From positions 34,650-98,649 of the IMG/VR virus record IMGVR_UViG_3300046820_001050: 64,000 bases of DNA, one strand, 5' to 3'. Shown here piece by piece: positions 1-62,723 of this stretch. The notes under the pieces are model-generated. The model searched no databases and had not been told where the DNA came from. It saw only the letters and a program-made list of their open reading frames with translations. The stretch comes from a virus. How positions within the stretch are numbered: position 1 is the first letter of the stretch; every line of letters begins with the position of its first letter. A program made the translations under genes and the position numbers.

Positions 1-320
1 CCTGCTGCAGCATGAGAATAGTGATGACCAAAGTTTTTTCTTGGAAGATCATCTAATTCTGTACCTTCAAACCATGGAGTACCTCCACCAAAACCACCCC
101 TAGTCTTTACTCTAAGTTTTTTAAGCAAAGGCTTTTCATAGTATGCAATTTGGTCTGGATATCCGTACTGAAGAGCATCTTTAATAAGTTCTCTGTTTGT
201 AAACCAGTCATTTTTTTGCTTACTATATCTTTCTGCATGCCCTGCAAAAAGTATCTCACCATTTTTTATTAGGGATACTGAAGCATCATGGGTGGTTTCA
301 TTTATACCAAGAATTATCAT
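1..320 (-). CDS. Carbamoyltransferase (NodU/TobZ type), N-terminal part, cut by window edge
   Basis: About 106 residues are visible and the reading frame runs off the left edge. It starts MIILGINETTHDASVSLI and later has GHHYSHAAA. This fits the N-terminal Kae1/TsaD-like domain of NodU/CmcH/TobZ O-carbamoyltransferases, in which the HHxxHA histidines bind metal. Family members move a carbamoyl group from carbamoyl phosphate to a hydroxyl of a sugar or antibiotic. The C-terminal YrdC-like half lies outside the window, so completeness cannot be judged. The ATG overlaps the stop of the upstream oxygenase gene by four bases (ATGA), which indicates translational coupling. A role in modifying a sugar made by the neighbouring genes is inference. 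Confidence 0.8.
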   Translation of the reverse strand, partial: MIILGINETTHDASVSLIKNGEILFAGHAERYSKQKNDWFTNRELIKDALQYGYPDQIAYYEKPLLKKLRVKTRGGFGGGTPWFEGTELDDLPRKNFGHHYSHAAA

Positions 321-988
321 TCTGCACCATACGACTCTCTTTTTTCATCAAATTTTATATTATGATACCAGTTTGGTAGAGCATATCTTGGTCCTTTTGT
401 AACTGGGTGAACCTCATGAACATATAGGAAGTTGGATGGAAAAAATAAAATGCTGCCAGCCTTTGGTTTTATCTTAATTCCAGAGTGCTTAAACTCTATC
501 TCTCCACCCTCATAGTCATCATTTAAATAAAGCAAAACGGAAAGCACACGACTGCTAACCCCTTGATCTTGATGTGCTGGCAGGTATCCACTTTCCTGAT
601 ACTTTAATATATGCATTTTTGATTCTCTAGATTTAATATTTTTTTCTGCAAATGGATATAGTTCAGTAGAATAGTGGCTAAGTGTTTTTTCTAGTGCTCC
701 AAAAAGTTGATCGGATATACTTTTTTGCTCTTCATAATAAGGATCTTTTAAGTCAATATTCTCAACTTGTGGTATAAACTTTTGCAAACAAAACATTAGT
801 TCATTTTTACCCTTGCCAAAAGTTCTAGGGATCCAAGGCTTAACACATGTATCTTTGTAATTTTCTGATACACACTTACTATCTAATTCTTCTATTTGCT
901 TAATTAAAAAATCTGGATTTTCTATTACATTTGTATAGTATACCAACCCTAGGTCAAGCACCTCACAGTTAAAATCTGGCATGTCCAT
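317..988 (-). CDS. 2-oxoglutarate/Fe(II) oxygenase, prolyl-4-hydroxylase-like
   Basis: 223 residues. The C-terminal half is a double-stranded beta-helix oxygenase: H139-Q-D141 (in PAHQDQG), a distal histidine at H191 or H194 (YVHEVHP), and R201 to hold 2-oxoglutarate. The strand YLNDDYEGGEIEF between them is typical of P4H-like proteins. Such enzymes hydroxylate an unactivated carbon, often proline, using O2 and 2-oxoglutarate. The substrate here is unknown. Two in-frame ATGs lie close together, at 988 and 982. The purine-rich AAGAAGGG upstream is better spaced for the second. The gene is four-base coupled to the carbamoyltransferase and follows a mini-gene and a second oxygenase. Confidence 0.8.
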   Translation of the reverse strand: MDMPDFNCEVLDLGLVYYTNVIENPDFLIKQIEELDSKCVSENYKDTCVKPWIPRTFGKGKNELMFCLQKFIPQVENIDLKDPYYEEQKSISDQLFGALEKTLSHYSTELYPFAEKNIKSRESKMHILKYQESGYLPAHQDQGVSSRVLSVLLYLNDDYEGGEIEFKHSGIKIKPKAGSILFFPSNFLYVHEVHPVTKGPRYALPNWYHNIKFDEKRESYGAE

Positions 989-1000
989 GTCCCTTCTTAA

Positions 1001-1087
1001 CTAGTAGATAAAGTTATTATCTCTAGGATTTTTTCTAATTTTTCTTTTAATAAAATAATATCTTATAGTTCTGATTATTTTTTTCAT
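1001..1087 (-). CDS. Possible 28-residue basic mini-protein
   Basis: A short frame starts MKKIIRTIRYYF and ends DNNFIY, with 11 Lys/Arg in 28 residues. A GGGAG Shine-Dalgarno sits a few bases before the ATG. It fills the only gap between two oxygenase genes. I do not recognise a family. The good ribosome binding site is the main evidence, and a chance frame is possible at this length. Confidence 0.4.
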   Translation of the reverse strand: MKKIIRTIRYYFIKRKIRKNPRDNNFIY

Positions 1088-1099
1088 AATTTTCTCCCA

Positions 1100-1663
1100 C
1101 TAGTTTAAATCTGGATCTATTGTAACATAGCCCTTTGGATGCTCTGTTTGAGTTGTATGCATATAAAGCAGTGTTGATCTGTGTCCACTTTCTATTGGAG
1201 ATATTCCATGCCTCCACAATTCCCCATCACTTGGGAAAAATACTCCATCATATTTTTTTGGTTTATAAGTAAAATTAAGTGCTGGAAAATATAAATCTCC
1301 ACCAGTAAAATTGTCATCAAGATATATTACAGTGCTATACTCTATAAATTCCTCTGGCGGTTGATCATCAACGTGTGCATCTCCCTGCATTCCTGTTTGC
1401 CAGACCGAACCAAATGACTTGAATGTCTTTATTTTTTTTGTTTCTTCTGGATGCAGTCTATGGTGAACATCAATAGATAGTAAAGAATATTTTTTTTGAA
1501 TAGCAAGAACAGTCTTGTTGTATGGATAGGCAGTTCCTCCGTACCTAGTGCTGTAGTATTCTGGGTATGGATTTTTTTCTGAAGGGCTTTTTATTTCACT
1601 CAATAAAATATCAGCATCTGCAGGACTAATAAAATTCTCAATTATAACTGGCTGCTTTATCAT
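1100..1663 (-). CDS. 2-oxoglutarate/Fe(II) oxygenase
   Basis: 187 residues. The iron ligands are clear: H97-V-D99 (GDAHVDDQP) and H152 (LWRHGISP), with R162 (GHRSTLL) as the likely 2-oxoglutarate anchor. The segment YLDDNFTGGDLYF matches the P4H-like core. It is a full-length small oxygenase of the type found in many large phages. It is not a close copy of the enzyme at 317-988, so it is probably a separate acquisition with a different substrate. It has its own extended -10 element at 1682-1690 and a Shine-Dalgarno-like GGGAGAAAG, so it may start a small transcript covering the accessory block to its left. Confidence 0.8.
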   Translation of the reverse strand: MIKQPVIIENFISPADADILLSEIKSPSEKNPYPEYYSTRYGGTAYPYNKTVLAIQKKYSLLSIDVHHRLHPEETKKIKTFKSFGSVWQTGMQGDAHVDDQPPEEFIEYSTVIYLDDNFTGGDLYFPALNFTYKPKKYDGVFFPSDGELWRHGISPIESGHRSTLLYMHTTQTEHPKGYVTIDPDLN

Positions 1664-1681
1664 TTCTTTCTCCCTAAACTA

Positions 1682-1690
1682 ATTATAGCA
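1682..1690 (-). promoter_or_regulatory. Extended -10 promoter element for the 1663 oxygenase gene
   Basis: Minus strand reads TGCTATAAT. It lies at the 3' edge of the glycosyltransferase gene, 18 bases before the ATG at 1663. No convincing -35 hexamer is present, as is usual for extended -10 promoters. Confidence 0.5.
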
Positions 1691-1696
1691 CAGACA

Positions 1697-2530
1697 TCAA
1701 TAAATACTTTTTTGCACTTCATGAAATCTTCTTTCGGACATGCCGTCTAGATTTGTTAGTGGTACATACTCAACATCATCCATAGGGTATGGAAAATATG
1801 CCAACCTGCTGAAATCATAATCAATAATTTTCATAAGTTGATCAACCCCTAAAATATCAGAACTCTTATTTTTAAAAGAGTCTATGATTTTTGAATAGTT
1901 GTGTCGCAATGCAAATGGTACAAAATCTTTTTCCAGTATACTAGGTTCTTCATCATTGACTAAACTAGTCGCAACTGATAGGATTGGAATGCTTTCATGT
2001 GCAGCAAACATAGACAAACACTCCTCAACCCCATAGTACTTAAACATTGATATATCTGGCAACCTTTTAAATAATCCAAAAGGAATAAAGAAAAACTCTT
2101 TAACTAGCCAATTGGTTAGTGTTGCTGAGCCTGTCTCTATCTTTTTATATTCTGGATAAAACTTGTAATTGTTTTTATCAAATACAATATTATGATTGCC
2201 AGATATAATTATCTCTGCTTGATTACTGTTTAACAATAATTCAGAATCCCAATTTTTTTCAAACATTTTAGCGCCATCAATATACATAAAAAAATCAAAG
2301 CCTTTTCTTTTCTTTAAGTAATTTAAATGTATAAATCTAGATATTAAACTGTCCCAGTGTATATGGTTATATTCTATGTCTAAAAATTTATCTGGCCTTG
2401 ATACATTTGTCTGATCATATACGATGATATGAACAGAGTTTTCACCACTTTGATTTTTTATAAGTTGCTCTACTGCTTGTGGTAACAACTTACTTTTGTA
2501 GCCATAAAAATAAACCAGTATACTTTTCAT
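1697..2530 (-). CDS. Putative GT-A glycosyltransferase, GT60 (GlcNAc-transferase)-like
   Basis: 277 residues from the ATG at 2530 (MKSILVYFYGY), preferred over an upstream ATG at 2575 because it follows the previous stop by one base and begins directly with a beta strand. The segment MYIDGAKMFEKNWDSELL resembles the IDSHxxFxxxWD metal/nucleotide motif of GT60 enzymes. KYYGVEECLSMFAAHESIP resembles their GEE acceptor-side motif. GT60 includes the Dictyostelium Skp1 enzyme that adds GlcNAc to hydroxyproline. The family call comes from motif reading, not a search. Oxygenase genes flank it on both sides, which suggests hydroxylation followed by glycosylation. A different GT-A family is possible. 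Confidence 0.6.
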   Translation of the reverse strand: MKSILVYFYGYKSKLLPQAVEQLIKNQSGENSVHIIVYDQTNVSRPDKFLDIEYNHIHWDSLISRFIHLNYLKKRKGFDFFMYIDGAKMFEKNWDSELLLNSNQAEIIISGNHNIVFDKNNYKFYPEYKKIETGSATLTNWLVKEFFFIPFGLFKRLPDISMFKYYGVEECLSMFAAHESIPILSVATSLVNDEEPSILEKDFVPFALRHNYSKIIDSFKNKSSDILGVDQLMKIIDYDFSRLAYFPYPMDDVEYVPLTNLDGMSERRFHEVQKSIY

Positions 2531-2531
2531 T

Positions 2532-3197
2532 TTACAACAATGGTATCCAGTGCTGCTCGATTGTTTGATCTCCACCTCTAAGTAAAGACTCTAAAGGCTG
2601 AATGTCATAGGCAACTGTAATTCTTGATCCAGACCAGTCCCAATCACCCTGTGCATGCGGATGACCCATTTCAGAAACAATCATCCTATTGTCAATATTA
2701 TGATTTGCAACTTCTTTGTTTGGATCCCCATAAAGTCTATAGTATGTTATTGATGGCTCAGCCTTTACACAATAATACCCATGAAAATTAGGAGCACCAG
2801 GTGCGCCGTGATCATGCCAGTTTAACTTTCCATTTCCTGCTTTATTTATATTGAACCAACCCTGAACGTAGTACTGTTGCTTTTCAAAATCTACACCATA
2901 ATATTCGCAGGCTTCCTTAACAGTTTTTGACAGTTCAGAATACAACTTGTATAAAGAAGGATGGTAAAGTTGAAATACATTATATTCTCTCCACTTTACA
3001 GTTGACAAACTTCCAGACTCTAGCCAGTACCCTGGATCATTTTCCATTGTTTCAACGCCACGAAGTTTTGCGTTTTCAATCAGTTTGTACTTTTCTTCTA
3101 AAAACCTAGCCAGTTCTTCTAGATCATTGTCTAGATATTTTTCAAAAAACTTATGTTCTTTGTTGTTTCTTAACATAGGCCCGTTTGAGTTTAGCAT
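2532..3197 (-). CDS. 2-oxoglutarate/Fe(II) oxygenase-like phage protein
   Basis: 221 residues. NWHDHGAP (H128, D129, H130) followed by FHGYYCVK resembles the HxH/HxD-plus-'GYYYV' core of the phage oxygenase family near PF13759. GHPHAQGDWDWSGSR supplies the distal histidine (H179 or H181) and the arginine (R192). It is more divergent than the two enzymes to its left, so the exact iron ligands are less certain. The start overlaps the preceding stop (TAATG), and the glycosyltransferase start follows its stop by one base. The three genes are therefore probably co-translated. The substrate is unknown. Confidence 0.65.
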   Translation of the reverse strand: MLNSNGPMLRNNKEHKFFEKYLDNDLEELARFLEEKYKLIENAKLRGVETMENDPGYWLESGSLSTVKWREYNVFQLYHPSLYKLYSELSKTVKEACEYYGVDFEKQQYYVQGWFNINKAGNGKLNWHDHGAPGAPNFHGYYCVKAEPSITYYRLYGDPNKEVANHNIDNRMIVSEMGHPHAQGDWDWSGSRITVAYDIQPLESLLRGGDQTIEQHWIPLL

Positions 3198-3961
3198 TAC
3201 TTATCTCCTTTATTATTTACTTGCTCTTTATTGTATTTTGCATATTCTTTTTTTCTCCATGCAAATTTTCTGTAGTGTGCAGTTATATCAGACCTTCTGT
3301 TTTCTGATCTTAACTGATGCTTTTCTATAGAATCAGATGAGTCATCAACTACCAGATTCCAAGGCTCTCTTTTGATTGGAATCATTTGAAACACTGGTGT
3401 TCCCATAGGTATTACTCCTTCAAAATCTTTTTTTATAAAGAATGGTATAAATGCAGGCAGTCCCCAAATATCTGAGTCTACTAATCCAGAAGGAACCCAA
3501 AACGGTAGATCTGGTCTGTTTATTGGCATTGTTAGCAATATAGAATATCCTTCAGGTGTTTCATAAAACCAATTCATCTTTACACCAAAATGTATTGGAT
3601 GAACATCTTTTGGAATTGCCATATCAACATTTGGTCTTTTGTCCATCAACATAAAATCTTTTTTCCAAGACAGAGAAGGCTTTCCGTGTAAATCTAGTTT
3701 TACCTCTAGATCATCTTCTAGTACATACATATACCCAAGAGACATTGCATCCTGGAATGGTAAACAAAGTTTTGTAGAAACATTTGATCCATCCCCACCT
3801 CTATCATTTACTGGGTGCAAATCTTTTAAGTCATTGCTGTTAAAATGTTTTGCTAAATCTCTATACCACTGAGGTATTTTTTTATATGACGGCTCTGGAG
3901 ATATAAAATTGTCAATGTTCCCGCTTGGAATAAAGGTTAACTCTAAATCATTGTTTTCCAT
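3197..3961 (-). CDS. Conserved phage protein of unknown function, paralogue of 60374-61087
   Basis: 254 residues. Recurring motifs are KKIPQWYRDL, LPFQDAMSLGYMYVL, WFYETPEGYSILLTMP, VDSDIW, FIPFFIKKDF and IPMGTPVFQMIPIKREPW. The same motifs in the same order occur in the protein at 60374-61087, so the two are clear paralogues about 57 kb apart. It resembles uncharacterised proteins seen in large phages (possibly the DUF6065 group, not checked). No catalytic signature is obvious. A beta-rich fold with a conserved C-terminal GTPxxQxxPxKRExW strip is likely. It overlaps the next gene by one base and the previous one by 14, so it belongs to the accessory operon. Confidence 0.6.
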   Translation of the reverse strand: MENNDLELTFIPSGNIDNFISPEPSYKKIPQWYRDLAKHFNSNDLKDLHPVNDRGGDGSNVSTKLCLPFQDAMSLGYMYVLEDDLEVKLDLHGKPSLSWKKDFMLMDKRPNVDMAIPKDVHPIHFGVKMNWFYETPEGYSILLTMPINRPDLPFWVPSGLVDSDIWGLPAFIPFFIKKDFEGVIPMGTPVFQMIPIKREPWNLVVDDSSDSIEKHQLRSENRRSDITAHYRKFAWRKKEYAKYNKEQVNNKGDK

Positions 3962-4607
3962 AATCTTCTTTTAACCTTTCTATCTCTTCATCACTTAAAA
4001 TAACAGACATGTCATACATTGGAGTATTCTTACTAATGATAGCATACTTTTCTTTTAGATGATATACACCAGTATTTTTAATTTTAAAATCAACAAATTC
4101 TGTATTTGCGTATGGGACATTGCTTTCGACTATTTTTCCCTTAAAAATTTTTTGAACTACATAAAAAGGAGTTTGCTCATCCATCACTGGATCAATAATA
4201 ATATTAGCATTCTTATTTATAAACCAGGGTACATAAAATTTATATGTTGGCTTAAAGCATTCATTACTTTCTAGATTATTTTCAGAAGGATAGAACTGTC
4301 TTTGATTGCATTTGTCTAAGGCGTATATGACATCTTTGTCTTTTTCCTCAACCCATATCTCTGCGTGAGTTCTTTGTCTAAAAGTAACCAAATTATTATC
4401 TATTTTTAATATTGTTGGCCTTGTGTATAAACTAAATGCATATCTGTTTATTGGGTGCAAAACACTTTTGATATTTTGCATGTATCCTGAGTCATACCTG
4501 GCCCAATGATCTGGCATTTTTGATTGACGGACTATTACTGAAAAAGGTAAGTTTTCAGAATTAAGCCACCATTCAGATCCTGAAATATAATTCTTGCTTT
4601 TTATCAT
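3948..4607 (-). CDS. Uncharacterised phage protein
   Basis: 219 residues, not recognised. It has many aromatic residues (SGSEWWLN, YVPWFIN) and no signal peptide or membrane segment. The pattern of short beta strands and the central VPWFINKNANIIIDP segment are vaguely like the neighbouring unknown-function family, so distant homology is possible but not shown. It starts at an ATG with AAGGG just upstream and has its own -10-like element at 4638-4643. It opens the accessory block downstream of the tRNA gene. Function is unknown. Confidence 0.5.
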   Translation of the reverse strand: MIKSKNYISGSEWWLNSENLPFSVIVRQSKMPDHWARYDSGYMQNIKSVLHPINRYAFSLYTRPTILKIDNNLVTFRQRTHAEIWVEEKDKDVIYALDKCNQRQFYPSENNLESNECFKPTYKFYVPWFINKNANIIIDPVMDEQTPFYVVQKIFKGKIVESNVPYANTEFVDFKIKNTGVYHLKEKYAIISKNTPMYDMSVILSDEEIERLKEDYGKQ

Positions 4608-4762: not shown

Positions 4763-5662
4763 TTAATTACGAATATATGATGCAGAACCAATCAAAATCT
4801 TTGGCAGAGAAGTTAGATAATCTCCAAAAGTTTTGTCTGTATTTCTACTCACGTATGATGCTGCTGATACCACGGTTGCTACAGAACTTCCAGCAGTATC
4901 TGTTGTTGAGCCATTGTACTTGGTAATAGTTACCTTTCCAGGTGCAACCATATCAAGTCCAGGACCTGTATTTGTTGCTGTCTCTAGTTGCGTTGCAATA
5001 GAAAAAGGTCCTGAAACAGTATTAGCCAAAGCACCAACACCAATTACTCCCTCAATACATGCAGGAAATCCAACAATATCTCTTCGTCTGTCATTGCCTG
5101 TTGCAACAAATACTGGGATATTGCTCTTACCTAAAGATGCTACTGCATTAATAGCGACTGTGTTTGTTGAGCATAGTGCAAGGTTACCTGCACTGACTGA
5201 AGACTGACTAATCGATAGAGCATCAATGCTGTACTTTGCTGCGTTCTGTGATACCCAATTCATTGCTGAAACTAATGATGTTACCTGGCTAGAAAGCATA
5301 TTTTGATTTCCATTTTTGTCTGTATTTGAAATTCTTATGAATACAATTTTAATATTGGGGTTAGCAGTAAGGGCAGACTTAACCATCTGATCTCCATGAT
5401 AAATTCCATTATTAATAGATGTTGGCCATGCTACTGCTGCTGCACCTTTGCCTTCCATAAAAGTGTTGCCGTTGGGACATGCTACTGGATTTGCAATCAC
5501 ATTTTGTCCTGTAAAACAAACCTCATGAATAATTGATGGAAAGTTATTTGAGTTAATAGCAGAGTCAATGACTGCTAATACTCTTTCATCTTGTGCTTGC
5601 GCTGGCTGAATTGCTGTAAATGCAATTGTAATTGATAGTAGTGCTAGTAGTAACTTCTTCAT
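4763..5662 (-). CDS. Secreted subtilisin-like serine protease (S8 family)
   Basis: 299 residues from the ATG at 5662, which has AAGGAG seven bases upstream. A start further upstream would bury the signal peptide. Residues 1-23 form a Sec signal (MKKLLLALLS... ending AQA). The catalytic triad is visible: D33 (AVIDSAI), H89 (YHGDQMV) and S260 (AGSSVATVVSA), plus the oxyanion N190 (VATGNDRR). The GTSMA motif of classical subtilisins is GSSVA here. At about 275 mature residues it is a compact catalytic domain without a recognisable propeptide. It presumably acts outside the cytoplasm or is exported late in infection. The neighbours are holin-like genes and the HslV-like gene, so a lysis or envelope role is plausible but unproven. 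Confidence 0.85.
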   Translation of the reverse strand: MKKLLLALLSITIAFTAIQPAQAQDERVLAVIDSAINSNNFPSIIHEVCFTGQNVIANPVACPNGNTFMEGKGAAAVAWPTSINNGIYHGDQMVKSALTANPNIKIVFIRISNTDKNGNQNMLSSQVTSLVSAMNWVSQNAAKYSIDALSISQSSVSAGNLALCSTNTVAINAVASLGKSNIPVFVATGNDRRRDIVGFPACIEGVIGVGALANTVSGPFSIATQLETATNTGPGLDMVAPGKVTITKYNGSTTDTAGSSVATVVSAASYVSRNTDKTFGDYLTSLPKILIGSASYIRN

Positions 5663-5682
5663 TATTTTCTCCTTGTTATTAT

Positions 5683-5901
5683 TTATTGTTTGATTTTTAA
5701 AACTAATTGGCATGGGTCTCCGCCTTCTTCCCACTCTTGCTGTTCTTCTTTAGTCATGTAAGGATCTCCTTCATGTGTATTGCAGAATGGCTCTGTTATC
5801 CATCCCCGCTCAATTCCATTTTCAAGCCAGATCTCAAACTCATCAAAGTCTGACTCCATATTCTGAATGTCCTTTAGGATCTCTTCAAATTCTTCGTTCA
5901 T
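5683..5901 (-). CDS. Small acidic phage protein with CxTHxGxPxTxEE motif
   Basis: 72 residues, strongly acidic. The C-terminal half, with FCNTHEGDPYMTKEEQ and WEEGGDPC, matches a small-protein pattern common in actinobacteriophages whose function is unknown. The two cysteines and the histidine could bind metal, but no ribbon fold is obvious. A -10-like TATACT ends six bases before the ATG, so the transcript may start at the start codon. An AGGAG lies 13 bases upstream, which is too far to be convincing. The gene sits between the HslV-like gene and the subtilase gene. Confidence 0.7.
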   Translation of the reverse strand: MNEEFEEILKDIQNMESDFDEFEIWLENGIERGWITEPFCNTHEGDPYMTKEEQQEWEEGGDPCQLVLKIKQ

Positions 5902-9254: not shown

Positions 9255-10394
9255 TTACTTAACAAGAGTAACCTTAGCCTTTGGATTCTTTGCATTCCAT
9301 TGGCGAGCCAACTTGTTGAAAGCATCCTTAAGTGACTTGATTGCTGCAGCATTATCTGCTGTCAACTTAGCAACGACTGCATCATGTGCAACCTTTACAT
9401 CAGCAAGTGCCTTATCTGAAGCAACCTTTGCATCTGCTAGTGCCTTTGCTGAAGCAGCCTTCTCTGCTGCTAGAGCAGCATCTGAAGCAACCTTTGCAGC
9501 AGCAGCATCCACAGCAGCCTTTAGAACTGCAGCATCTGCTACAGCCTTAGCAGCAAGTGCTGCATCCTTAGCAGCCTTTTCTGCAGCAAGTTCTGTGATT
9601 AGATCACGAACAGCAATTTCTGCAAATGGTGCAAGTGTACGAGCAGTTAGACCTACTACGTCTGCAGAAGCAGCATCAGAAGATGTTGTTGGTGCAAATG
9701 TGATAAGTGCTCGTGAGCCAGTTGTTGGAAGAGTTGCCTTGAAGGTTGCTGTTCCAAAATCTGCAAGTGTAGCACCAGTTGTTACTGTTGCTGTGTCTAG
9801 TGTTGCTGTTGCAGCAAAGACTGTTGCAGTAATTGACTTACCAGATACCTTATTACCAAATGCATCTGTTGCAGTTACTGTAATGTCCTGCTTTGTTCCT
9901 GCTGCACCTGATGTAGGTGCTGCAACTGTTAGGTTATTAATCTTTCCAGCAGTTCCCTGTACATAGTATGTAAGGGTTGTTCCACCGTTGTTGATTACAA
10001 CTGTACCAATTGCTGTTGTCTTTGTGTAGACAAAAAATGTTGCAGTTGTTCCAGTACCTGTTGCAATTGTCAAAGATGATGATCCTGACGATGCTCCTAC
10101 TGGTGCTGCTGATGTGTTTAGTGCTGATACGATTGTTGCGTTAGTTGCTACTGCAGAAACTGATGTTCCTGCTGCTACTGTTGCTACAAAACGCAATGCA
10201 TCTGTTGCATCAATTACGTTATCTTCTGGGACTGGCAATGCAGCAGGTGTAGCAATTACACCGTTAGTGGTGTTTGCTGTACCATTTAGCGTTACTGCGA
10301 CTGTCATTACTGTAGCATTTGCAGGTGCTACTGCGACCATGCCCAAAGTCATGGCTGCAACCACGGCTAGTGCGATCTTCTTGAATGAATTCAT
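9255..10394 (-). CDS. Secreted Ig-like, Ala-rich surface protein (host-like)
   Basis: 379 residues with a clear signal peptide (MNSFKKIALAVVAAMTLGMVAVAPANA). The mature protein begins with low-complexity Thr/Val/Ala beta sequence and an invasin/Big-like repeat (about 150-250, with KQDITVTATDAFGNKVSGKSI). A long Ala-rich heptad coiled coil follows (about 265-350), and the end is AFNKLARQWNAKNPKAK. That C-terminus resembles surface proteins I associate with freshwater actinobacteria, suggesting acquisition from a host. It has AAGGAG before the ATG and its own terminator, so it is probably well expressed. It could be a virion decoration, a surface mask or an adhesin. Function is not known. Confidence 0.6.
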   Translation of the reverse strand: MNSFKKIALAVVAAMTLGMVAVAPANATVMTVAVTLNGTANTTNGVIATPAALPVPEDNVIDATDALRFVATVAAGTSVSAVATNATIVSALNTSAAPVGASSGSSSLTIATGTGTTATFFVYTKTTAIGTVVINNGGTTLTYYVQGTAGKINNLTVAAPTSGAAGTKQDITVTATDAFGNKVSGKSITATVFAATATLDTATVTTGATLADFGTATFKATLPTTGSRALITFAPTTSSDAASADVVGLTARTLAPFAEIAVRDLITELAAEKAAKDAALAAKAVADAAVLKAAVDAAAAKVASDAALAAEKAASAKALADAKVASDKALADVKVAHDAVVAKLTADNAAAIKSLKDAFNKLARQWNAKNPKAKVTLVK

Positions 10395-54514: not shown

Positions 54515-57500
54515 TTAGACAGCATCAACAGTAGTTTGTTGCAAAGTTATACCTTTATAGACATTATATTCATATCCGTTTACCGTAAACACCTTTTCGG
54601 TATCAATAATAATCTTGTTAGTTCCAGTATAACTCTTGTAAACTGTCTCTGGATTTACGCCATAATAACTACTTGAGGCCAAAACTAATACCCCGTCCCA
54701 AATAAAGGCTGAAGACTTCCAATAATCCCATTCAAGAGTAAGTGGGCTTGCATACTTCACAGCAAACCATGGGCGAATCTCTACCTGCTGGACCTCCTGA
54801 AGGTTTGTAGACTGGTAGTATGAAATAGTATTAAACGTAATAGGTCCATTAAGATTTATTGATCCAACTCTATTTTTAAAGTCTAAAATATTTGGAAAAG
54901 ATATTCCCAAGAATCCCCACTCTTTTACTGTAATAACTGGCTCTTTTACAAGTTTGCCATTCCAATAAAAAGATATTCCATCTTCTAATCTTCCAGTTTT
55001 TGCATTAATTGCATAGATCTTTGCTCTTTCTCCACTTGGGTGAATTGCAACCATATAAAACTTTATGTGAGTATTCCTTGATTGTATCTCAAATATTTCT
55101 GTTGATCCATATGGAAATGCATCTTGGTCATATCTTATGGCTGTTTGTAAGGCTATAACTTTGTAGTTTTCTGCCATTGTTTTATTTATTGGAATAGAAA
55201 GACCACGGTTAATTAGTGGGTCATAAACACCCTTTAACTCTATCCCAGTATATCTTGTTAGATATAGGTATGGAGAACTACCCTTATAAATCGTAAAAGG
55301 ATTTCTTTCTTTATAATCATAATAGAAACCAGATTTTTTATATGGATATATCTCATTGCCAAACCTTGTTCCAATAGGGTTTGGAGATGTTGCGTTAAAT
55401 GCTTGAGATGCGTACTCAAGGTTTCTAACCTTAATTCTATTTTTCAATATTCCCTTGACATTAAAATCTAAGTGTGTGACTATTGCAAGGTCCAGAGTTC
55501 TTGCATTTGATGGTGGGTAAATAATCATGTTATTAACTACTTCATATTTTGTGTTAATCCAGTTTTCTCCTGGGACAACAAAAGAATCGTTTGATGGTTT
55601 TTCACTATTAACAAAATTTGACTCTGGCAGATTTGTTCCATTTTCAATATATTGAAAAGTAATATATGATTTTACCAAAGCATTTGACGTATCATACTTA
55701 TAATTTTTGTAGGCTCTATTTTTTAAATCATCATAATTTAAATATCCAGTAAATAACTGATTATCTAATGATGAGTATGTTCTCTGAGTTGGCACATTGT
55801 ATTGGTCATACAATTGTTCATATGTCCAAGAACCAGTTTGCTCTTCTTCAACAAAGACTGATGGGGCTGGGTAATTTATATTAAACTGAATTAGGTCTAA
55901 ATCATATACATCTTTGCCTTTTTCATCTTTAATGTATTGGGCAAAATATGTAAGAGGAATGTAGTCTTCCCAATAACCTTGAATGTCAATGTCTAAAGTG
56001 TAGTTGTCAAAATATGAAGATGGTGATAAAGTATAACTTGCTGTATGTCCTTGGAAACTTTCTACTGGATAAGAATTTACACTGCCTGAGTCAACAATTT
56101 CGTCCCACTCTGCAGGATTTGTTCCAAAATAATTATCTGTTGAGTTGTATTCTACATCAATTGTGTCTGCATATAAATCAAAAACATTTTCATCGCCTAC
56201 AGGGATTCCTTTTTCATTAAACAGGTACTCAATTTTTTTGTGATTTCTTGCCGTACAAAAACCAACCTTATAAATTTTTCCAGAGAATGTTTCTGTAAGA
56301 TTTGATTTTCCACCTATATAGAACTTAAGGGTGTTTACATTTCCAAAGAATGATGCAACATTTCCTCCAAAGTATTTAGAAACTTTATCTATATCTATTC
56401 CTACAGAAAACATCTCATTTACAGTAATTCCAGCAAGCGTATTTTCGTTAGACCATGAAAATTTTGCAAGTGTTATTGGCTCAGTTGATCCAGACTTTAA
56501 GATATAAACTACATCGTTACTAAGCGTAGATATTTCAAAGTAATCTGAAGAGTTCTGAGACTCTATTCTGAAAAGTATTTGCTTGGTTGTAGGCTCTTGT
56601 AAAAACTTAAACGATCCATAAAAGGATCTAATCTTTTGATTTAAAAAATTTAAATTATCAAAATACATGTAACCGTTTTGTGCTGGGTTAAAAGAAAAAA
56701 ACTTTTCAGTTTCATTTTGCATTGTTCCTAATTGAGAATATAAACTATGAATATCAGAAGATGCTAGTACTATTTCTGGCAAAGAGTATTCTGGTGTACA
56801 AAGCATGTTATTTTCTACGGCAAGGTTATCAATTACTGCCTGACTCCACTTTCCAATATTTGGATAAGAGTAATTGTTTGTATAATCTGCAAATGGATAA
56901 TCTATATAAACTGATGATCCACTATATGCTTGATTAATTCCCTCTGGAAATTCAACTCCTTGTCCATATATAAATCTTTTCTTTGCTAATACTAGTGGTA
57001 CTTGATAAGTATAAATTGCAACGCAGTCAAGTTCTACTGGAGACACATCTTCGTATGCATAAAACCCAATCCAGTCTTGATCTTTTCCAAGTGAATTAAG
57101 TTTTGATGGTAGTTGTAATTCTGAAGTTATATAGTTAAGAGATATAACTTCTTCGCCATTTATAAGCATAGATGCATAGTTTTCTGAAATACGAACATGC
57201 ATTAACATTGGCCTTGTCCATTCACCAACATAATAAGAACCAGAAATATTTCCAATCTTTAAAGTAAGGAATGGCCCATCAACATAAATACCATCATCAG
57301 AACCTATTGGACCAATAATTCTTTTAATAGTAGACGAGTCAGAGTTGATTCTAAGCCAAGCCTCTAACGTGTACTCTTTGTATTGACCACCTTCAGATAA
57401 AAACCCTAGCCCTGGAATGATTAAAGAGGGGTCTCCGTTGTTTGGCAAAAGTTTTGTAAGATTTGATGCCCCGTATACAATTGGAATTCCAGTGTTCTTT

Positions 57501-58225
57501 GCCATAAGGCTGTTGTCTTTGACTAAGTAATATCCTTTGTTGTCTTGTAGACCATAAGCGTTTGCCTCAATTCCAAAATATGGACTTAATGCTATGTCTG
57601 ATGGTATTGATATTTTTTGAACACCTAAAGATGATGAATTAAATTCTTCACACCACTGACCAGCGGTGATTCCATTAACAAGAAATTGATAATCATCTAC
57701 AGTTGATGCTCCGCCAATATAGTTGATCTTTAATACAATTCTAAATTCTGTATTATCTTCTGGGATGTCAAATGTCTCAGAGATAAAAAACCATTTATCT
57801 TTAACAGATGTTGTGTATGACTTAAGTCTTTGAATTGTACTTCCAGATGTTGTGTCATAGTACTCATAGCCAATTTCAAAACTAGAAGCATAGGCGCTTA
57901 TTGAATTAAAAAATGCACCAATTGAGAATGTGGACAGGTTGTCATTTAGAGATGAAAAGTTAACTATATTGTTGCTTATGCAAACAATTTGTCCAAAGTC
58001 ATTTTCTGTAAGAGTTCCTGTAATTTTTACTGTTTGACTACCAATAAAAGGCTCGTCAGTCGTAATGTGGTTCACTGCCGTTCCATTGCTTATTGTCCAA
58101 GAAGTTACATTTCTGTCAGCCTCATCAACTAAACTAATGTAATCTGCAACGTCATCTAATGCCCAAAGAGCGATGGGATGTTCTGCATATATTTTTTCTG
58201 CATAGAGGTTGGATGAACTAGACAT
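54515..58225 (-). CDS. Large LamG/concanavalin-like structural protein
   Basis: 1236 residues. The N-terminus contains AEHPIALWALDDVADYISL, the signature start of LamG-type carbohydrate-binding domains. Further sandwich-like blocks follow at about 270-400 (EYTLEAWLRINSDSSTIKR, GIYVDGPFLTLKIGNISGSY) and about 500-650 (YMYFDNLNFLNQKIRSF). The C-terminal third is beta-rich and unassigned. This fits a receptor- or glycan-binding virion protein. It lies between ribonucleotide reductase and the head genes rather than in the tail block, and has its own TGGTAAAAT element 9 bases before its ATG, so it may be transcribed separately. Confidence 0.65.
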   Translation of the reverse strand: MSSSSNLYAEKIYAEHPIALWALDDVADYISLVDEADRNVTSWTISNGTAVNHITTDEPFIGSQTVKITGTLTENDFGQIVCISNNIVNFSSLNDNLSTFSIGAFFNSISAYASSFEIGYEYYDTTSGSTIQRLKSYTTSVKDKWFFISETFDIPEDNTEFRIVLKINYIGGASTVDDYQFLVNGITAGQWCEEFNSSSLGVQKISIPSDIALSPYFGIEANAYGLQDNKGYYLVKDNSLMAKNTGIPIVYGASNLTKLLPNNGDPSLIIPGLGFLSEGGQYKEYTLEAWLRINSDSSTIKRIIGPIGSDDGIYVDGPFLTLKIGNISGSYYVGEWTRPMLMHVRISENYASMLINGEEVISLNYITSELQLPSKLNSLGKDQDWIGFYAYEDVSPVELDCVAIYTYQVPLVLAKKRFIYGQGVEFPEGINQAYSGSSVYIDYPFADYTNNYSYPNIGKWSQAVIDNLAVENNMLCTPEYSLPEIVLASSDIHSLYSQLGTMQNETEKFFSFNPAQNGYMYFDNLNFLNQKIRSFYGSFKFLQEPTTKQILFRIESQNSSDYFEISTLSNDVVYILKSGSTEPITLAKFSWSNENTLAGITVNEMFSVGIDIDKVSKYFGGNVASFFGNVNTLKFYIGGKSNLTETFSGKIYKVGFCTARNHKKIEYLFNEKGIPVGDENVFDLYADTIDVEYNSTDNYFGTNPAEWDEIVDSGSVNSYPVESFQGHTASYTLSPSSYFDNYTLDIDIQGYWEDYIPLTYFAQYIKDEKGKDVYDLDLIQFNINYPAPSVFVEEEQTGSWTYEQLYDQYNVPTQRTYSSLDNQLFTGYLNYDDLKNRAYKNYKYDTSNALVKSYITFQYIENGTNLPESNFVNSEKPSNDSFVVPGENWINTKYEVVNNMIIYPPSNARTLDLAIVTHLDFNVKGILKNRIKVRNLEYASQAFNATSPNPIGTRFGNEIYPYKKSGFYYDYKERNPFTIYKGSSPYLYLTRYTGIELKGVYDPLINRGLSIPINKTMAENYKVIALQTAIRYDQDAFPYGSTEIFEIQSRNTHIKFYMVAIHPSGERAKIYAINAKTGRLEDGISFYWNGKLVKEPVITVKEWGFLGISFPNILDFKNRVGSINLNGPITFNTISYYQSTNLQEVQQVEIRPWFAVKYASPLTLEWDYWKSSAFIWDGVLVLASSSYYGVNPETVYKSYTGTNKIIIDTEKVFTVNGYEYNVYKGITLQQTTVDAV

Positions 58226-58250: not shown

Positions 58251-60284
58251 CTACTTGTTTATTTTAATTTCACAATAGTCTGTAGTGCAGTACATCTCTC
58301 CCTGAGCCTCAAGGTTTTCTGCTCCATCATAGATAGCAGAAAAATCAATGTGCTTCAATTTGCCGATATATGACTCGTATTGCTCTTCAGTAATCTGGGT
58401 GTATGGCTGTTGTGGATATGTGTGATTTCCCATTGGCAGGAATGAAACTGCCTTTAATTGTCCCTCGTACATATGCAGTGCTGGAACAACATGCTTTGAC
58501 TCTGTTTCCTTATCAAATGAAAGCGTTACAGAAACTCCATTATCAGACCAGTACTTCTGAGCAGTTGCAGCAAGTGCAATCTTTTCAAATAACGTAACAT
58601 CCTTTTCAGATCGTGGATGACCTGACTTGATTGGGAAGTATACAACTGATGTGTTTGCTGATACAACGTCGTCTTCTATTGTGTACCCCGCTGCTTTGAA
58701 CAAGTGCATCATTGGATCTGTGTTTCCAAATCGAACTGCACGAAGGAAGAAGTTTCCTCCAGGTCCCCAGTGAACTCCAGGAGTTGCACCAGAAAGAATT
58801 GAAACTGATCCTGATGGCTTAACTGTTGTTACACGAATTGACTCACGAACACATAGCCACTCTGAATACTGGTGGTCATAGTGACGAATCTTATTGTATC
58901 CTTCATCCATCCATTCACGAACAACTGGCAAACCCTTCTGATCTGCAAATGATGCAATACCAGTGAGTGATGTACCAATACGACGATTGCGTTGCATGAT
59001 ACCGTTTGTTTGTGGCCAGTGTGTTGGAACAAGCGTTACAGTCTTTCCATAAAGGTATGCAAACTTCAGGGTACGCAGGAAGTCTTCCTTAGATTCATGA
59101 CGATTTAAGTGCACTTCTACAAGTGTACACAGTTCGTATGATTCTAATGGCTGCTCCGCACATGGGTTGAATCCCATCACACGATAATCCTTACCGTCTG
59201 GCGCATCCTTTAGTCGTCCATAATTACGAGCAACATCAAGCCAGATAAAACCTGGTTCTCCGTTTTCCGTAATTAAATCTACATAGTCTTCATAATTTGT
59301 TCCTACTTCTGCTGAAATAGAATTGTTAGACATCCAAGCCCAACCTGGAGTCTCTGGATCAAATGAGTTACGCTCTGGGAACATCTCTGAGTTCTTTAGA
59401 TTCATAAATGTTTCATCCCCTGCATTACCCAAAGCAAGAGTTGCTGATCGTCTTACGTTTCCTGATACCACACAGGTACCAATAAGATTTACAAGGTCTA
59501 CGATAGCACGAGAGTCTAGGGTTTCTCCGCCTCTGGAGCCGATTACACGGTCTATCTGGTCGTGCAACTTGATAAGAGGTGCAGGTCCTGATGCAACGCC
59601 TCCAAAGCCCTTGATAGGGGCTCCTAGGGGTCTGATCAAATCGTAGTTAAACTTCTGAATACTCTGGTTTGCTCTTAAGTAAGAGTTGATGAGAAGGCGT
59701 ACTGATTCTACCCAGCCTTCACGAGTGTCTGGAATTTCGAACACCTGTTCTGGCTCTGTTGGGGTATAGATTGAGAAATTCTTATCCTGTCCCACTGTGT
59801 CAAACCCTACACCAATGCCAAGCATCAATGCATCCATAACCCAAGCAAATAATGCTCCTGGATCATTCTTATCAAGGTCCTTGGTTGAAACCATGGCACA
59901 GTTTTGTAGTGCTGCTGAGTTCTTTTTCTCCATAGTCATAGGAGTTCCAAATGCCCACATGCCACGACCTGGTGGTGTCCACTTTAATTCAAACATTCTT
60001 TGGAATGCTTCTTGTGCTGACTTCTGAGCCTTATAGTCATTCCATGGCAAACGGTTTTCTTTAGCATGATTCTTCTGAACTGAATACATACCCTCGATTA
60101 CACGGCGACAAACTTCATTCCATCTTTCTTTAGTTCCATCTTCCTTCATACGAGAATATGTACGAATAAAAGTAATTTCTCCAAGTGAATTTTCTGCTGC
60201 ATCCTTGAATCCAAATGGGCTTTCTACATTTTTGTACTTTTCTACAAAATCTTCTGGAAGTTTAAAACTAAAAAAATCTGACAT
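58251..60284 (-). CDS. nrdJ: Class II (adenosylcobalamin-dependent) ribonucleotide reductase
   Basis: 677 residues, monomeric RTPR-like. The catalytic set is visible: C129 (LQNCAMVST) and C386 (YELCTLVEV) as the redox pair, C375 and E377 (FNPCAEQPL) for radical chemistry. The C-terminal C666 and C671 (MYCTTDYCEIK) shuttle electrons. The 11-residue spacing of C375 to C386 matches Lactobacillus RTPR (C408/C419). The enzyme converts ribonucleotides to deoxyribonucleotides using coenzyme B12, so the phage depends on host or environmental cobalamin. AAAGGACG precedes the ATG and a TGCTATACT element lies upstream. Confidence 0.92.
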   Translation of the reverse strand: MSDFFSFKLPEDFVEKYKNVESPFGFKDAAENSLGEITFIRTYSRMKEDGTKERWNEVCRRVIEGMYSVQKNHAKENRLPWNDYKAQKSAQEAFQRMFELKWTPPGRGMWAFGTPMTMEKKNSAALQNCAMVSTKDLDKNDPGALFAWVMDALMLGIGVGFDTVGQDKNFSIYTPTEPEQVFEIPDTREGWVESVRLLINSYLRANQSIQKFNYDLIRPLGAPIKGFGGVASGPAPLIKLHDQIDRVIGSRGGETLDSRAIVDLVNLIGTCVVSGNVRRSATLALGNAGDETFMNLKNSEMFPERNSFDPETPGWAWMSNNSISAEVGTNYEDYVDLITENGEPGFIWLDVARNYGRLKDAPDGKDYRVMGFNPCAEQPLESYELCTLVEVHLNRHESKEDFLRTLKFAYLYGKTVTLVPTHWPQTNGIMQRNRRIGTSLTGIASFADQKGLPVVREWMDEGYNKIRHYDHQYSEWLCVRESIRVTTVKPSGSVSILSGATPGVHWGPGGNFFLRAVRFGNTDPMMHLFKAAGYTIEDDVVSANTSVVYFPIKSGHPRSEKDVTLFEKIALAATAQKYWSDNGVSVTLSFDKETESKHVVPALHMYEGQLKAVSFLPMGNHTYPQQPYTQITEEQYESYIGKLKHIDFSAIYDGAENLEAQGEMYCTTDYCEIKINK

Positions 60285-60373: not shown

Positions 60374-61087
60374 TTACTTGTATGTTTTCTTTTGCCAAAA
60401 CTTAAGCCTATATCCATGCTGAAAACTAGACCTAACTTTTATTCTTTGCTCTTCTATTTTCTTTAAATCAAAACTTTTGTCTACTTCCATTTCCCATTCT
60501 TCTCTCTTAAAAGGAAAAATTTGAGACATTGGAGTTCCTTGCTTTATGGTTCCCTTAAAATTTTTCTTTACCAAGAAAGAAAGATGACCATCAGTAAAAT
60601 AAGTATCTGTATCGACTACTGCGTCAATTGCTTTTAGTGGTGATACATTTTGGTGCATAGGACTTGTAAATAAAGTGCTATATCCTTCTTCAGTTTGAAC
60701 CATCCATGTTGGATGTATTCTTAATATTTTATCACAATAAATTTCTCTATCAATTGGAAGATGTGAAACTTGCTCTATTCCGTGTTCGCTTATTAGTGCT
60801 GCCTGATATTTATTCATATGTGCAGGTAATTGAAGTTTAAAATCTCCGTCAGTTGTATCTATATATATATCTACTGGAACTTTTAAAATATAACCCATTG
60901 ACATGGCATCAAAGAATGCTTGACATTTTTTTACAGTGAGTTTTAGTTGTCCTTTTTCAGGTGTGTCTTCTCCTACAACTCCTGGCTGTTCTTTGTACCA
61001 TGCAGGAATATTTTTTGTTCCTGGCTCTGGCAGTGGTGCTACATTTGCTAAAGGAGGATACATCTGTAAAAATTTAATGATATTCAT
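60374..61087 (-). CDS. Conserved phage protein of unknown function, paralogue of 3197-3961
   Basis: 237 residues. It shares ordered motifs with the protein at 3197-3961: NIPAWYKEQP, FFDAMSMGYILKVP, WMVQTEEGYSTLFTSPMH, VDTDTYF, FLVKKNFKGTI and GTPMSQIFPFKREEWEM. It carries DIYIDTTDG in the first half, where the paralogue has a different sequence. AAAGAAAGG precedes the ATG. It sits between tail-fibre genes and ribonucleotide reductase. It could be a nucleotide or ligand-binding protein, but nothing in the sequence identifies the ligand. Confidence 0.6.
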   Translation of the reverse strand: MNIIKFLQMYPPLANVAPLPEPGTKNIPAWYKEQPGVVGEDTPEKGQLKLTVKKCQAFFDAMSMGYILKVPVDIYIDTTDGDFKLQLPAHMNKYQAALISEHGIEQVSHLPIDREIYCDKILRIHPTWMVQTEEGYSTLFTSPMHQNVSPLKAIDAVVDTDTYFTDGHLSFLVKKNFKGTIKQGTPMSQIFPFKREEWEMEVDKSFDLKKIEEQRIKVRSSFQHGYRLKFWQKKTYK

Positions 61088-61169: not shown

Positions 61170-62723
61170 TTAGAAATTAGTTTCTATTTGATAACCATCA
61201 TAAACTAGGAAGCGGTCTGTATAAAACATATCATAAGGCTCACAGTTAATTGAAATAACTTCGTGAGGAGTGTATGATATTATCAACTCAGTGATAGGAA
61301 CCCAAGAATTCGTGTCTGCAGACCATAGTTCGTCTGTCTCCAAAAGATCTTCAGAGGCAATCATGCTAGAAACATTATCTCTTTTTGCAAGCATATAGTG
61401 AGTTCCTGAGTAATATTCGCCATTTATTCCAACAGAAACCTGTGCTGTTGATGTTCCTATTGCAACGATTGTTGTCTCTTTGTCAGGAATAGCAACAACA
61501 TTTGTTGGAGTTTCTGTCCATGACTGAACATCTTGAACTGTAAAGTTTGATCCTAGTCCAGGGATTTCTGTAGAAACAAGAACATCTCCGACCTTAAGAT
61601 TTTTTGCTTGAGTAAGCCCATCTACAGTCAAAACTAATGTGTCTATGTTTACAGAGAAGTCAAAACTTCCTCCTGGAGAAAATCCGAATGCAGGAACAAA
61701 TCCAAATGCTCCGAATGCACCGAATGCTCCGAATGCACCGAATGGTGCAAAACCAAATGCTCCGAATGCACCGAATGCTCCGAATGCACCGAATGGTGCA
61801 AAACCAAATGCTCCGAATGCTCCGAATGCTCCGAATGGTGCGAATGAGAACACTGTTGTAACATTTCCTGATGCACCTGATGTTCCAGAACTTCCGTTTG
61901 CATTGTCTGCACGAACTGTGTATGTCTGTGAACTTCCCTGTTCTTGAGATACGTTTACAGATGTTGACCCTGTATTTCCAGACTTACCGTCAGATGCTGC
62001 CCAGAAATAATTGGTGATAGCCTTACCGCCATTATTTGGTGCTGACCATGAGACAGAGTCAGTTCCTGCTGATGGTGATGATGCGGAAGGTGCACCTGGA
62101 GTTGCAGGTACTGTAGTTGCAGTAATAGCATTTGAAGCAGCAGATGTTGCTGAGTTTCCATTAGCATTAGTTGCTACTACTGTAAAAGTATAAGATGTTC
62201 CTGATTGAAGTCCTTGTACTGTAATTGGAAAACCATCAGTTCCAGTATAGCCACCAGAAGATGCTGTAGCAGTATAAACACTTACTGCTTTACCACCTGT
62301 AGCCCCTGCAGTATAACTAACTGTTGCTGCGCCGTTATTAAATGACCTACCTGTTCCAACATCTGTAGCAGTTACGCCAACTGGTGTTTGAGGAACAGTA
62401 GTAACTGTTACAGAATTAGATCCAGCAGATGTTGGGCCAACTCCTGAAGCGTTTGTTCCTGTTACTGTAAATGTTGGAGTTGCTCCTGAAGAAATTCCAG
62501 TTACAACAATTGGAGATGATGATCCTGTTGCTGATTGTCCAGTGCTTGCTGTTACAGTAAATGATGTTGCAGCGTTTGGACCTGTAGGAGTAAATGTCAC
62601 TGATACAGCACCATTGTTAAATGGTCTTGCTGTTCCAACATCTGTTGCTGTACCTATTGTTGGTGCGTATGGAGTTAGGAAGTCATTTGCTCCCTGACTC
62701 ATTCTACCTGCTTGCTTTGACAT
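61170..62723 (-). CDS. FN3-repeat tail protein with (GAF)n linker and Hint-like C-terminal domain
   Basis: 517 residues, with AGGGAGA before the ATG. Three FN3-like repeats occupy about residues 20-290 (SFTVTASTGQSATGSSSP, SYTFTVVATNANGNSAT, TDSVSWSAPNNGGKAITNYF). A repeat of GAF/GFAPFG units follows (about 290-345). The last 160 residues look like a Hint domain: DTLVLTVDGLTQAKNLKVGD then VLVSTE matches intein/hedgehog block A, and SGTHYMLAKR matches block B with its TxxH. The C-terminal His-Asn and a nucleophile are missing, so splicing is unlikely. Context suggests a virion fibre or adhesin. The Hint-like part may do autocleavage or anchoring. Confidence 0.7.
   Translation of the reverse strand: MSKQAGRMSQGANDFLTPYAPTIGTATDVGTARPFNNGAVSVTFTPTGPNAATSFTVTASTGQSATGSSSPIVVTGISSGATPTFTVTGTNASGVGPTSAGSNSVTVTTVPQTPVGVTATDVGTGRSFNNGAATVSYTAGATGGKAVSVYTATASSGGYTGTDGFPITVQGLQSGTSYTFTVVATNANGNSATSAASNAITATTVPATPGAPSASSPSAGTDSVSWSAPNNGGKAITNYFWAASDGKSGNTGSTSVNVSQEQGSSQTYTVRADNANGSSGTSGASGNVTTVFSFAPFGAFGAFGAFGFAPFGAFGAFGAFGAFGFAPFGAFGAFGAFGAFGFVPAFGFSPGGSFDFSVNIDTLVLTVDGLTQAKNLKVGDVLVSTEIPGLGSNFTVQDVQSWTETPTNVVAIPDKETTIVAIGTSTAQVSVGINGEYYSGTHYMLAKRDNVSSMIASEDLLETDELWSADTNSWVPITELIISYTPHEVISINCEPYDMFYTDRFLVYDGYQIETNF
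61702..61848 (-). repeat. 51-base tandem repeats encoding GAF motifs
   Basis: Copies at 61702-61752 and 61753-61803 are identical. A third, degenerate and shorter copy runs from 61804 to about 61848. Each is built from nine-base units of the CCGAATGCW type (plus strand) and encodes a 17-residue GFAPF(GAF)n unit. Confidence 0.9.

Follow-up and report, generated by a model that had tools for sequence, protein, structure and literature searches.

The 64,000-nucleotide stretch of phage DNA analysed here (the window) comprises bases 34650-98649 of the 98,649-base IMG/VR phage record IMGVR_UViG_3300046820_001050 (G000). It starts with a block of seven minus-strand genes which, in transcript order, encode U3948, the DUF6065-like protein U3197, the oxygenase-like protein OxyC, a glycosyltransferase (GT), the 2-oxoglutarate (2OG) oxygenases OxyB and OxyA and a NodU-type carbamoyltransferase. 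The spacing between genes within the block is -14 to +111 nt. We tentatively read the block as a mobile cassette with which the phage modifies its own tail or adhesin proteins after translation. The conservation of the block across many uncultured phages, and the position of part or all of it directly behind genes for repeat-rich tail-type proteins in related phages, suggest that these phages chemically decorate their own tails. Any exact chemistry is much less probable than tail-protein modification as such. The terminase of the window phage had ~55% identity to terminases of Streptomyces phages (e.g. Yaboi, Karimac).

The gene order of the block recurred in dozens of contigs, with GT identities down to about 19-20%, which is far beyond chance. 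Neighbours were counted among open reading frames (ORFs) of at least 100 amino acids (aa), called with a simple script. Directly upstream of 63 non-identical GTs, OxyC was found in 60 cases; the remainder had a contig edge, another GT or an unassigned gene. The direct downstream neighbour was OxyB (49), OxyC (6), OxyE (1), OxyA (1), an unassigned gene (3), a GT (1) or a contig edge (2), meaning that an oxygenase-type gene immediately followed 57 of the 63 distinct GTs. OxyN, OxyD, OxyE and a 274-aa protein without a Pfam match were called oxygenases by eye; the 274-aa protein lies between OxyB and OxyA in a sister group. A preliminary description of this DNA had proposed co-occurrence in related phages as a check on its own pathway, and these counts bear the co-occurrence out. 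GT-seeded scans returned 17 contigs. U3948, U3197, OxyC, OxyB and NodU were present in all 15 with sufficient flank, the carbamoyltransferase accompanied the block in all 17, and OxyA was nearby in just three of the 17. U3197 and U3948 (together 3197-4607), upstream of OxyC, belong to the block, which thereby also holds a protein of predicted dUTPase fold that the preliminary description had not used.

The link to tails was found in related phages. In a second clade (loci L099, L101, L108 and L109), the cassette lies directly or a few genes behind the gene of a protein with FnIII domains, a FGFTPFGFTPFGFTP-type repeat and a C-terminus that is Hint-like by eye. A tail-seeded scan covered the best 80 of 136 relatives and yielded 77 loci in 43 clusters at 85% identity. 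Six of the 43 clusters (<2.5 kb downstream) and 17 of 94 tail ORFs (first of a tandem) were set aside. DUF6065 and/or OxyC were found behind the tail gene in 36 of the 37 clusters with at least 2.5 kb downstream, first appearing at gene 1 in 19 clusters, at gene 3 in 15, at gene 4 in one and at gene 6 in one. By content, 14 clusters had GT, OxyA or OxyB, nine had OxyC only, nine had DUF6065 only, four had both and one had none. This last cluster (L273) was counted as a miss; its tail gene leads a tandem pair, and the contig is short. In the clade bearing GT, OxyA or OxyB, the whole block lies behind the tail gene. The repeats of these 14 clusters were nearly pure (FGFTP)n, with 0.135 TP per residue vs 0.086, 0.068 and 0.057 in the remaining groups (Mann-Whitney p 2.6e-5, not corrected for kinship). 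Among 11 virus records, the tail profile matched in all seven with OxyC (in G005 as a weak FnIII match, with no repeat) and in one of the four without OxyC.

Two side observations concern these repeat proteins. In L204, L205, L207, L224 and L226, a second, larger FGFTP-repeat protein (914-919 aa) lies upstream of the first. The protein at L113:4682-5728 is of the FnIII/Hint-like type with a His/Gly/Phe/Tyr-rich repeat (HGFYHGFGHY) and scarce Pro; two DUF6065 genes and OxyC lie behind it.

The strongest partner candidate of the window phage is the protein at 61170-62723, which has FnIII domains and an F-rich repeat. Its gene is followed by the second DUF6065 gene, a B12-type ribonucleotide reductase and a LamG-like protein (Table 1), and L245, L246 and L252 have similar gene sizes and order. 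The second DUF6065-like protein had 53% identity to the L108 copy of U3197. We infer that the 61170-62723 protein is a tail component and a substrate of the cassette. No Pfam match to a Hint domain was found in it, and tblastn at E 1e-3 gave no match in 50,697 phage records. Separately, a search of bacterial genomes with one of the alignment profiles gave no relative.

Table 1. Genes of the block and of the candidate tail region, with positions in the window
Feature	Position	Strand	Basis
NodU/Nol-type O-carbamoyltransferase, first 106 codons	3..320	-	PF02543, PF16861, phrog_1601 3.5e-105
OxyA, P4H-type 2OG-Fe(II) oxygenase (P4H, prolyl 4-hydroxylase)	317..988	-	PF13640 1.7e-18; PDB match; motif residues
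OxyB, PF13640 oxygenase	1100..1663	-	PF13640 3.2e-6; motif; directly downstream of 49/63 distinct GTs
GT-A glycosyltransferase, GT60-like	1697..2530	-	low-confidence GT-A model; PF11397 via relatives, window copy without match
OxyC, divergent 2OG-Fe(II)-oxygenase-like, HxH...H...R	2532..3197	-	hhalign to PF13759-type oxygenases; conserved H128, H130, H181, R192
U3197, DUF6065-like, predicted dUTPase fold	3197..3961	-	AlphaFold2 model; structure matches; phrog_7084
U3948, block-associated protein	3948..4607	-	recurs with block; no similarity found to U3197
LamG/ConA-like protein	54515..58225	-	PF13385 4.4e-4, 20.9 bits, below 27.6 cut-off
B12-type ribonucleotide reductase, adjoins second DUF6065	58251..60284	-	PF17975 2e-31
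Second DUF6065-like protein	60374..61087	-	PF19541 E 0.0019, 18.2 bits, below 26.6 cut-off; directly downstream of tail-type protein
Tail-type protein, FnIII domains, F/G/A/P-rich repeat, Hint-like C-terminus (by eye)	61170..62723	-	fn3 2e-8; tail-profile match 1.6e-102

The preliminary description had counted three oxygenases with intact HxD...H...R sets. This holds for OxyA and OxyB, in which the motifs were assigned by eye (OxyA: H139-x-D141, distal His 191 or 194, R201; OxyB: H97-x-D99, H152, R162) and the PF13640 scores of 67.8 and 28.4 bits exceeded the cut-off of 27. The top PDB match of OxyA was a procollagen-proline dioxygenase/prolyl 4-hydroxylase (E 3.3e-6), followed by PKHD hydroxylases, prolyl 3-hydroxylase, LH3 and EGLN1. 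Together with the PF13640 matches, this supports an assignment to the P4H family. The TET/JBP model gave 22 bits against OxyA, below its cut-off of 34.9. The count of three does not extend to OxyC, which has H128-D-H130...H181...R192, i.e. HxH instead of HxD. The HxD/E metal motif of 2OG oxygenases is thus absent from OxyC, and the window member had no oxygenase Pfam match, PF13759 included. The PF13759-type set aligned for comparison also has HxH (H101 and H103 invariant). One row of the OxyC-family alignment (21 rows, one of them a cyanophage protein) matched PF13759 at 3.4e-5. In a single pairwise profile comparison, hhalign placed OxyC with cyanophage PF13759-type oxygenases (prob 95.1, E 3e-8), and a profile alignment to an OxyC-like cyanophage protein gave a prob of 88.3. 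The OxyC profile gave two chance-level rows against solved structures.

For the GT, family assignment came through relatives. The window copy had no Pfam or PHROG family match and no tblastn match at E 1 in the 50,697 phage records. The GT profile found nothing at E 10 among sequences of solved structures, and a PF11397 search of G000 at E 10 gave no match. Scans seeded with U3197 and OxyC yielded GT relatives down to 19% identity. PF11397, the GT60 Pfam family, was matched by 14 of 25 family members, scanned singly, at E 1 or better (best 3.5e-8). When ten members were re-scanned with PF11397 at its 21-bit cut-off, two were above it (L108 29.6, L100 29.2), four below it and four without a match. 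An AlphaFold2 model built from 13 close aligned sequences was weak and GT-A-like (pLDDT 59.6, pTM 0.65). Its structural neighbours were many GT-A enzymes with tied scores, including mimivirus R699, heparosan synthase 2, LH3, GalNAc-T2 and chondroitin polymerase. In VIA, this low-confidence model matched K4CP (Z 14.1, rmsd 3.1, 189 aligned) and GalNAc-T2 (Z 14.1, rmsd 3.3, 189 aligned), with cellulose synthase and LH3 tied. GT60 chains were not among the structure-match rows, which carries no weight, as the presence of GT60 in the PDB is uncertain. The segments YIDGAKMF and YGVEE, on which the earlier GT60 resemblance had been based, are present in the window GT; across the wider family, other residues replace the Asp of the first, and the second is loosely kept. 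The possibility that the enzyme belongs with nucleic-acid glycosyltransferases had also been raised, and no such match turned up. In codon comparisons of GT genes, third positions differed most (e.g. 66/38/129 vs L010, saturated), a pattern consistent with purifying selection.

U3197 probably has a dUTPase fold. Its AlphaFold2 model (34 diverse sequences aligned) had a pLDDT of 83.6 and a pTM of 0.79. In Foldseek, 49 of the 50 listed rows were dUTPases or dCTP deaminases, of which the first row alone was below E 0.001 (9.3e-4). In VIA, all 50 listed rows were dUTPases (Z 9.3-10.6; best rmsd 4.0 over 130 residues). No Pfam match was found for U3197, neither PF00692 nor PF19541 (DUF6065). Its family profile gave nothing at E 1 against solved structures, and NCBIfam gave nothing useful. 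dUTPases have five motifs. By eye, U3197 has a motif 3-like (I/V)DSD and a motif 4-like GTPxxQxIP; motifs 1 and 5 were not recognised. Homologues of U3197 were found in haloviruses and cyanophages. In halovirus HRTV-7, a protein that is Gly-rich by eye (L027:8161-9150) lies near the DUF6065 homologue, across a strand switch. U3948 had no phage match at E 0.1. A similar C-terminus had led to the guess that it is a DUF6065 paralogue; this was rejected on the basis of hhalign to the DUF6065 profile (prob 0.9).

Under tail decoration, the 2OG oxygenases (OxyA and OxyB of the P4H type, OxyC more distant) would hydroxylate side chains of a repeat-rich virion tail protein. The GT60-like transferase would then add a sugar to the hydroxylated residue, with hydroxyproline or a Thr next to Pro the likeliest. 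Characterised GT60 enzymes use hydroxyproline of Skp1 (passages of PMC6939170) or Thr of mucins (passages of PMC9472816) as acceptor. The NodU-type enzyme, which was not found in the clade with the block next to the tail gene, may add a carbamoyl group to the sugar or a hydroxyl. DUF6065 and U3948 would be accessory, perhaps as docking factor, chaperone or nucleotide handler. All such phages would share hydroxylation; glycosylation would come on top in phages like that of the window, and carbamoylation perhaps in the window clade.

Several results weigh against this reading. The query of the tail-seeded scan was itself derived from phages that carry the cassette, so that its closest relatives give a biased sample, and its hit list was limited to the best 80. 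The link of the block to the tail gene is one-sided: such a tail gene was found in none of 48 loci of the DUF6065-seeded set and in just nine of 42 loci of the OxyC-seeded set, and nine DUF6065 loci (L067-L075) had neither OxyC nor GT. In the window clade, ~57 kb separate the block from the tail gene. The tail repeats FGAFGAFGFAP (G000) and FGA-type (G001, G003) have little or no Pro and no TP run despite the presence of the GT, and some linked repeats are almost Pro-free (L256; HGFYHGF in L113). None of the 77 loci from the tail-seeded scan, in whose clade the block adjoins the tail gene, had NodU; the carbamoyl step would therefore stand outside the common core. The GT also departs from GT60, which carries a DxH motif in place of DxD (passages of PMC7185993). 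The window GT has D-G-A at this site and orthologues have N-G-A, S-D-D, S-S-S or N-P-N. Because of this D-G-A, with its Asp replaced in orthologues, the enzyme is named GT60-like, not GT60, and is taken as probable kin of PF11397 via its relatives; to this extent, the GT60 assignment of the preliminary description is supported.

Two further points against tail decoration concern DUF6065, whose predicted fold is that of nucleotide enzymes and whose genes, in the window phage, HF2, HRTV-7 and S-RIM4, have a ribonucleotide reductase or thymidylate synthase gene close by. Both would fit a modification of nucleotides or DNA, in which DUF6065 handles a (modified) nucleotide, the oxygenases and the GT decorate bases and NodU carbamoylates them; one DUF6065 copy, that of S-CREM1, is in addition annotated as 'triphosphate nucleotidohydrolase'. 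Clusters for DNA hypermodification are known in phages. We consider this quite unlikely here. Neither a C5-cytosine methylase nor a member of the thymidylate synthase/hydroxymethylase family was found in 11 records, and no classical dUTPase (PF00692) in 12, these records being possibly incomplete; because they may be fragments, DNA hypermodification was kept as a rival despite these negative searches. The oxygenases are P4H-like, with OxyA below the TET/JBP cut-off, and GT60 relatives are directed at polypeptides in the passages cited above. Moreover, nine clusters have the OxyC-tail pair with no DUF6065 nearby.

The whole carbamoyltransferase gene runs past the window edge (G000:33536-34969, equal to L009:13536-14969) and encodes 477 aa. 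Both its Pfam domains matched (E values of 1.3e-52 and 1.3e-35 for the two; 123.9 bits for the N-terminal and 178.2 bits for the C-terminal domain), so the earlier identification of a NodU-type enzyme at the end of the block stands. The substrates of NodU-type carbamoyltransferases are usually small molecules or sugars. This is one reason to consider that the set tailors a host surface glycan or a sugar precursor, e.g. to exclude other phages. Proteins with SGNH-like motifs by eye adjoin NodU, and the DUF6065 genes of L067 and L074 lie beside genes that are glycosyltransferase- and epimerase-like by eye, which points in the same direction. We nevertheless regard glycan tailoring as unlikely: OxyC and DUF6065 are linked to tail-type genes in unrelated phage groups, and the P4H and GT60 families are protein-directed where characterised, as far as passages of the cited papers go.

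With a subtilase-like gene on one side and the genes that follow on the other, the block looks like an insertion at a cargo site, which is variable in the window clade. In L081, L082, L095, L097 and L098, U3948, U3197, GT and OxyB are all absent, and OxyC and NodU are kept between the subtilase-like gene and the next genes. Two window genes at this site, an Ala-rich one (9255-10394) and the subtilase-like one (4763-5734; PF00082), were conserved in the majority of the terminase-seeded loci, whether or not these had the block. A cargo site would also suit a phage that hydroxylates and glycosylates a host protein for takeover or for protection of the cell, and the P4H/PHD-like family of the oxygenases agrees with this. 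A Pseudomonas prolyl hydroxylase, for example, hydroxylates EF-Tu. However, a virion substrate better explains the tail linkage, and modification of a host protein is improbable in our view.

The preliminary description had proposed prolyl hydroxylation, GlcNAc on hydroxyproline and a possible carbamoyl cap, with the Pro-rich stalks at 7015-8982 or 49348-49857 as candidate substrates. This draws on the P4H and GT60-like families lying side by side and on a Pro-rich protein upstream at many block loci. The first stalk was controlled with a terminase-seeded scan, of which the best 80 loci were kept and 21 had at least 6 kb downstream. The stalk protein matched in 18 of the 21 loci and in none of L180, L181 and L195; L180 and L181 have another large Pro-rich protein despite the lack of a stalk match. 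Block genes were found in five of the 21 (L138, L141, L142, L180, L181). Of 14 stalk loci extending at least 8 kb beyond the terminase, 13 had no U3948, U3197, OxyC, GT or OxyB there. The stalks at 12 of these 13 block-free loci still had a 40-residue stretch of 25-47.5% Pro, vs 37.5-45% in the three stalk loci with block genes. Some of the 13 bear other oxygenase genes there. G010, a 70 kb record with a stalk locus without the block, has no OxyC anywhere. Close relatives without the block at this place thus have the stalk too, and in 12 of 13 cases it is Pro-rich; the stalk at 7015-8982 is therefore not supported as the substrate, and the proposed pathway on the Pro-rich stalks is very improbable. 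What had been observed earlier was partly confirmed, and its interpretation partly supported.

A comparable layout in cultured cyanophages counts in favour of tail decoration. In T4-like cyanophages, DUF6065 stands first in an oxygenase array, and an OxyC-like protein is found in the arrays of S-CREM1, syn9 and Syn10. The order in S-CREM1, syn9 and S-RIM44 is Gly-rich proteins (PF21722, one scanned each), tryptophan halogenase(s), DUF6065 and oxygenases; Sf-FR1 has annotated tail fiber proteins in place of the Gly-rich proteins. Hence, the DUF6065/oxygenase run lies behind Gly-rich or 'tail fiber' proteins in these four phages. A syn9-type DUF6065 was found in 15 phage records; 13 of these have an adjoining halogenase annotation or VirX1, S-RIM4 is without, and a RefSeq copy of P-TIM40 was left out. 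The Syn10 gene directly upstream of DUF6065 is VirX1 (residues 1-530 match PDB 6qgm, which bears that name). Like the block, the cyanophage halogenase arrays (syn9, Syn10 with VirX1, S-RIM44, S-CREM1, Sf-FR1, P-TIM40) combine DUF6065 with oxygenases in a single run; the genes behind DUF6065 carry hypothetical annotations in Syn10 and P-TIM40, those of Syn10 as similar to syn9's. Where the block has the GT and the carbamoyltransferase, these arrays have halogenases, and their tail repeat differs.

It is conceivable, though doubtful, that a cassette family marked by DUF6065 and OxyC finishes low-complexity tail parts in many tailed viruses that infect aquatic microbes. All would share hydroxylation; phages like that of the window would add glycosylation (and, in the window clade, carbamoylation) and cyanophages halogenation, so that VirX1 would act on a tail protein. 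Such a family was not described as such in the passages of the literature searched. Passages of PMC9964418, PMC3037559 and PMC2984593 describe the 2OG oxygenases and halogenases of cyanophages as genes of metabolism, DNA repair, protein modification or lipids and as possible producers of antibiotics; tail proteins are not named there as their target, and the natural substrate of VirX1 is not stated in the passages on it. Searches on tail-fibre hydroxylation, phage prolyl hydroxylase with glycosyltransferase, and cyanophage prolyl 4-hydroxylase gave no title or abstract opening on tail-protein modification, most subscription journals lying outside the search. If the idea is right, a tail target explains why cyanophage oxygenases and halogenases form arrays beside tail genes, VirX1 gains a testable natural substrate, and adhesin decoration by enzymes, along with its consequences for host range, becomes open to experiment. 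The cultured cyanophages Syn10 and syn9 are ready systems for the tail-target idea.

Hydroxylation followed by glycosylation has precedents elsewhere. Mimivirus L230 is a collagen lysyl hydroxylase-glycosyltransferase. As in the proposed cassette, L230 and human LH3 hydroxylate and then glycosylate a repeat-rich protein, and LH3 was among the fold matches of the GT model; they differ from the block in the GT and oxygenase families, in being a single fused protein and in acting on collagen Lys. Virion glycosylation is known in actinobacteriophages, where phage GTs act on virion proteins; to our knowledge, no oxygenase partner has been described there. The Skp1 pathway of protists (PhyA/P4H1, then Gnt1 of GT60) resembles the block in pairing a P4H-family hydroxylase with a GT60-related transferase (passages of PMC6939170). 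In contrast to that pathway, the phage GT has no DxH and reaches PF11397 via relatives only, the block has extra oxygenases, a carbamoyltransferase and DUF6065, and there is no Skp1.

Additional genes of the record were recorded as minor observations. G000 has seven PF13640 oxygenase domains, three of them in tandem at G000:23453-24863. Outside the window, a 480-aa protein (G000:13105-14547, equal to L008:13105-14547) carries a luciferase-type monooxygenase-like segment (PF00296, below cut-off) fused to a PF13640 oxygenase. Three related proteins (L009:11670-12587, L009:12639-13532, L008:17274-18287) show SGNH-like motifs by eye, and two of them adjoin NodU. They had no Pfam match at E 0.1, and one relative matched only an unrelated family, weakly; relatives of the three recur close to NodU in other phages. 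L009:8791-9552 encodes an APS-kinase-like protein of 253 aa with a weak nucleotidyltransferase match, and many of these phages have same-sized genes downstream of the block (identified by size; in L067 and L108 also by eye).

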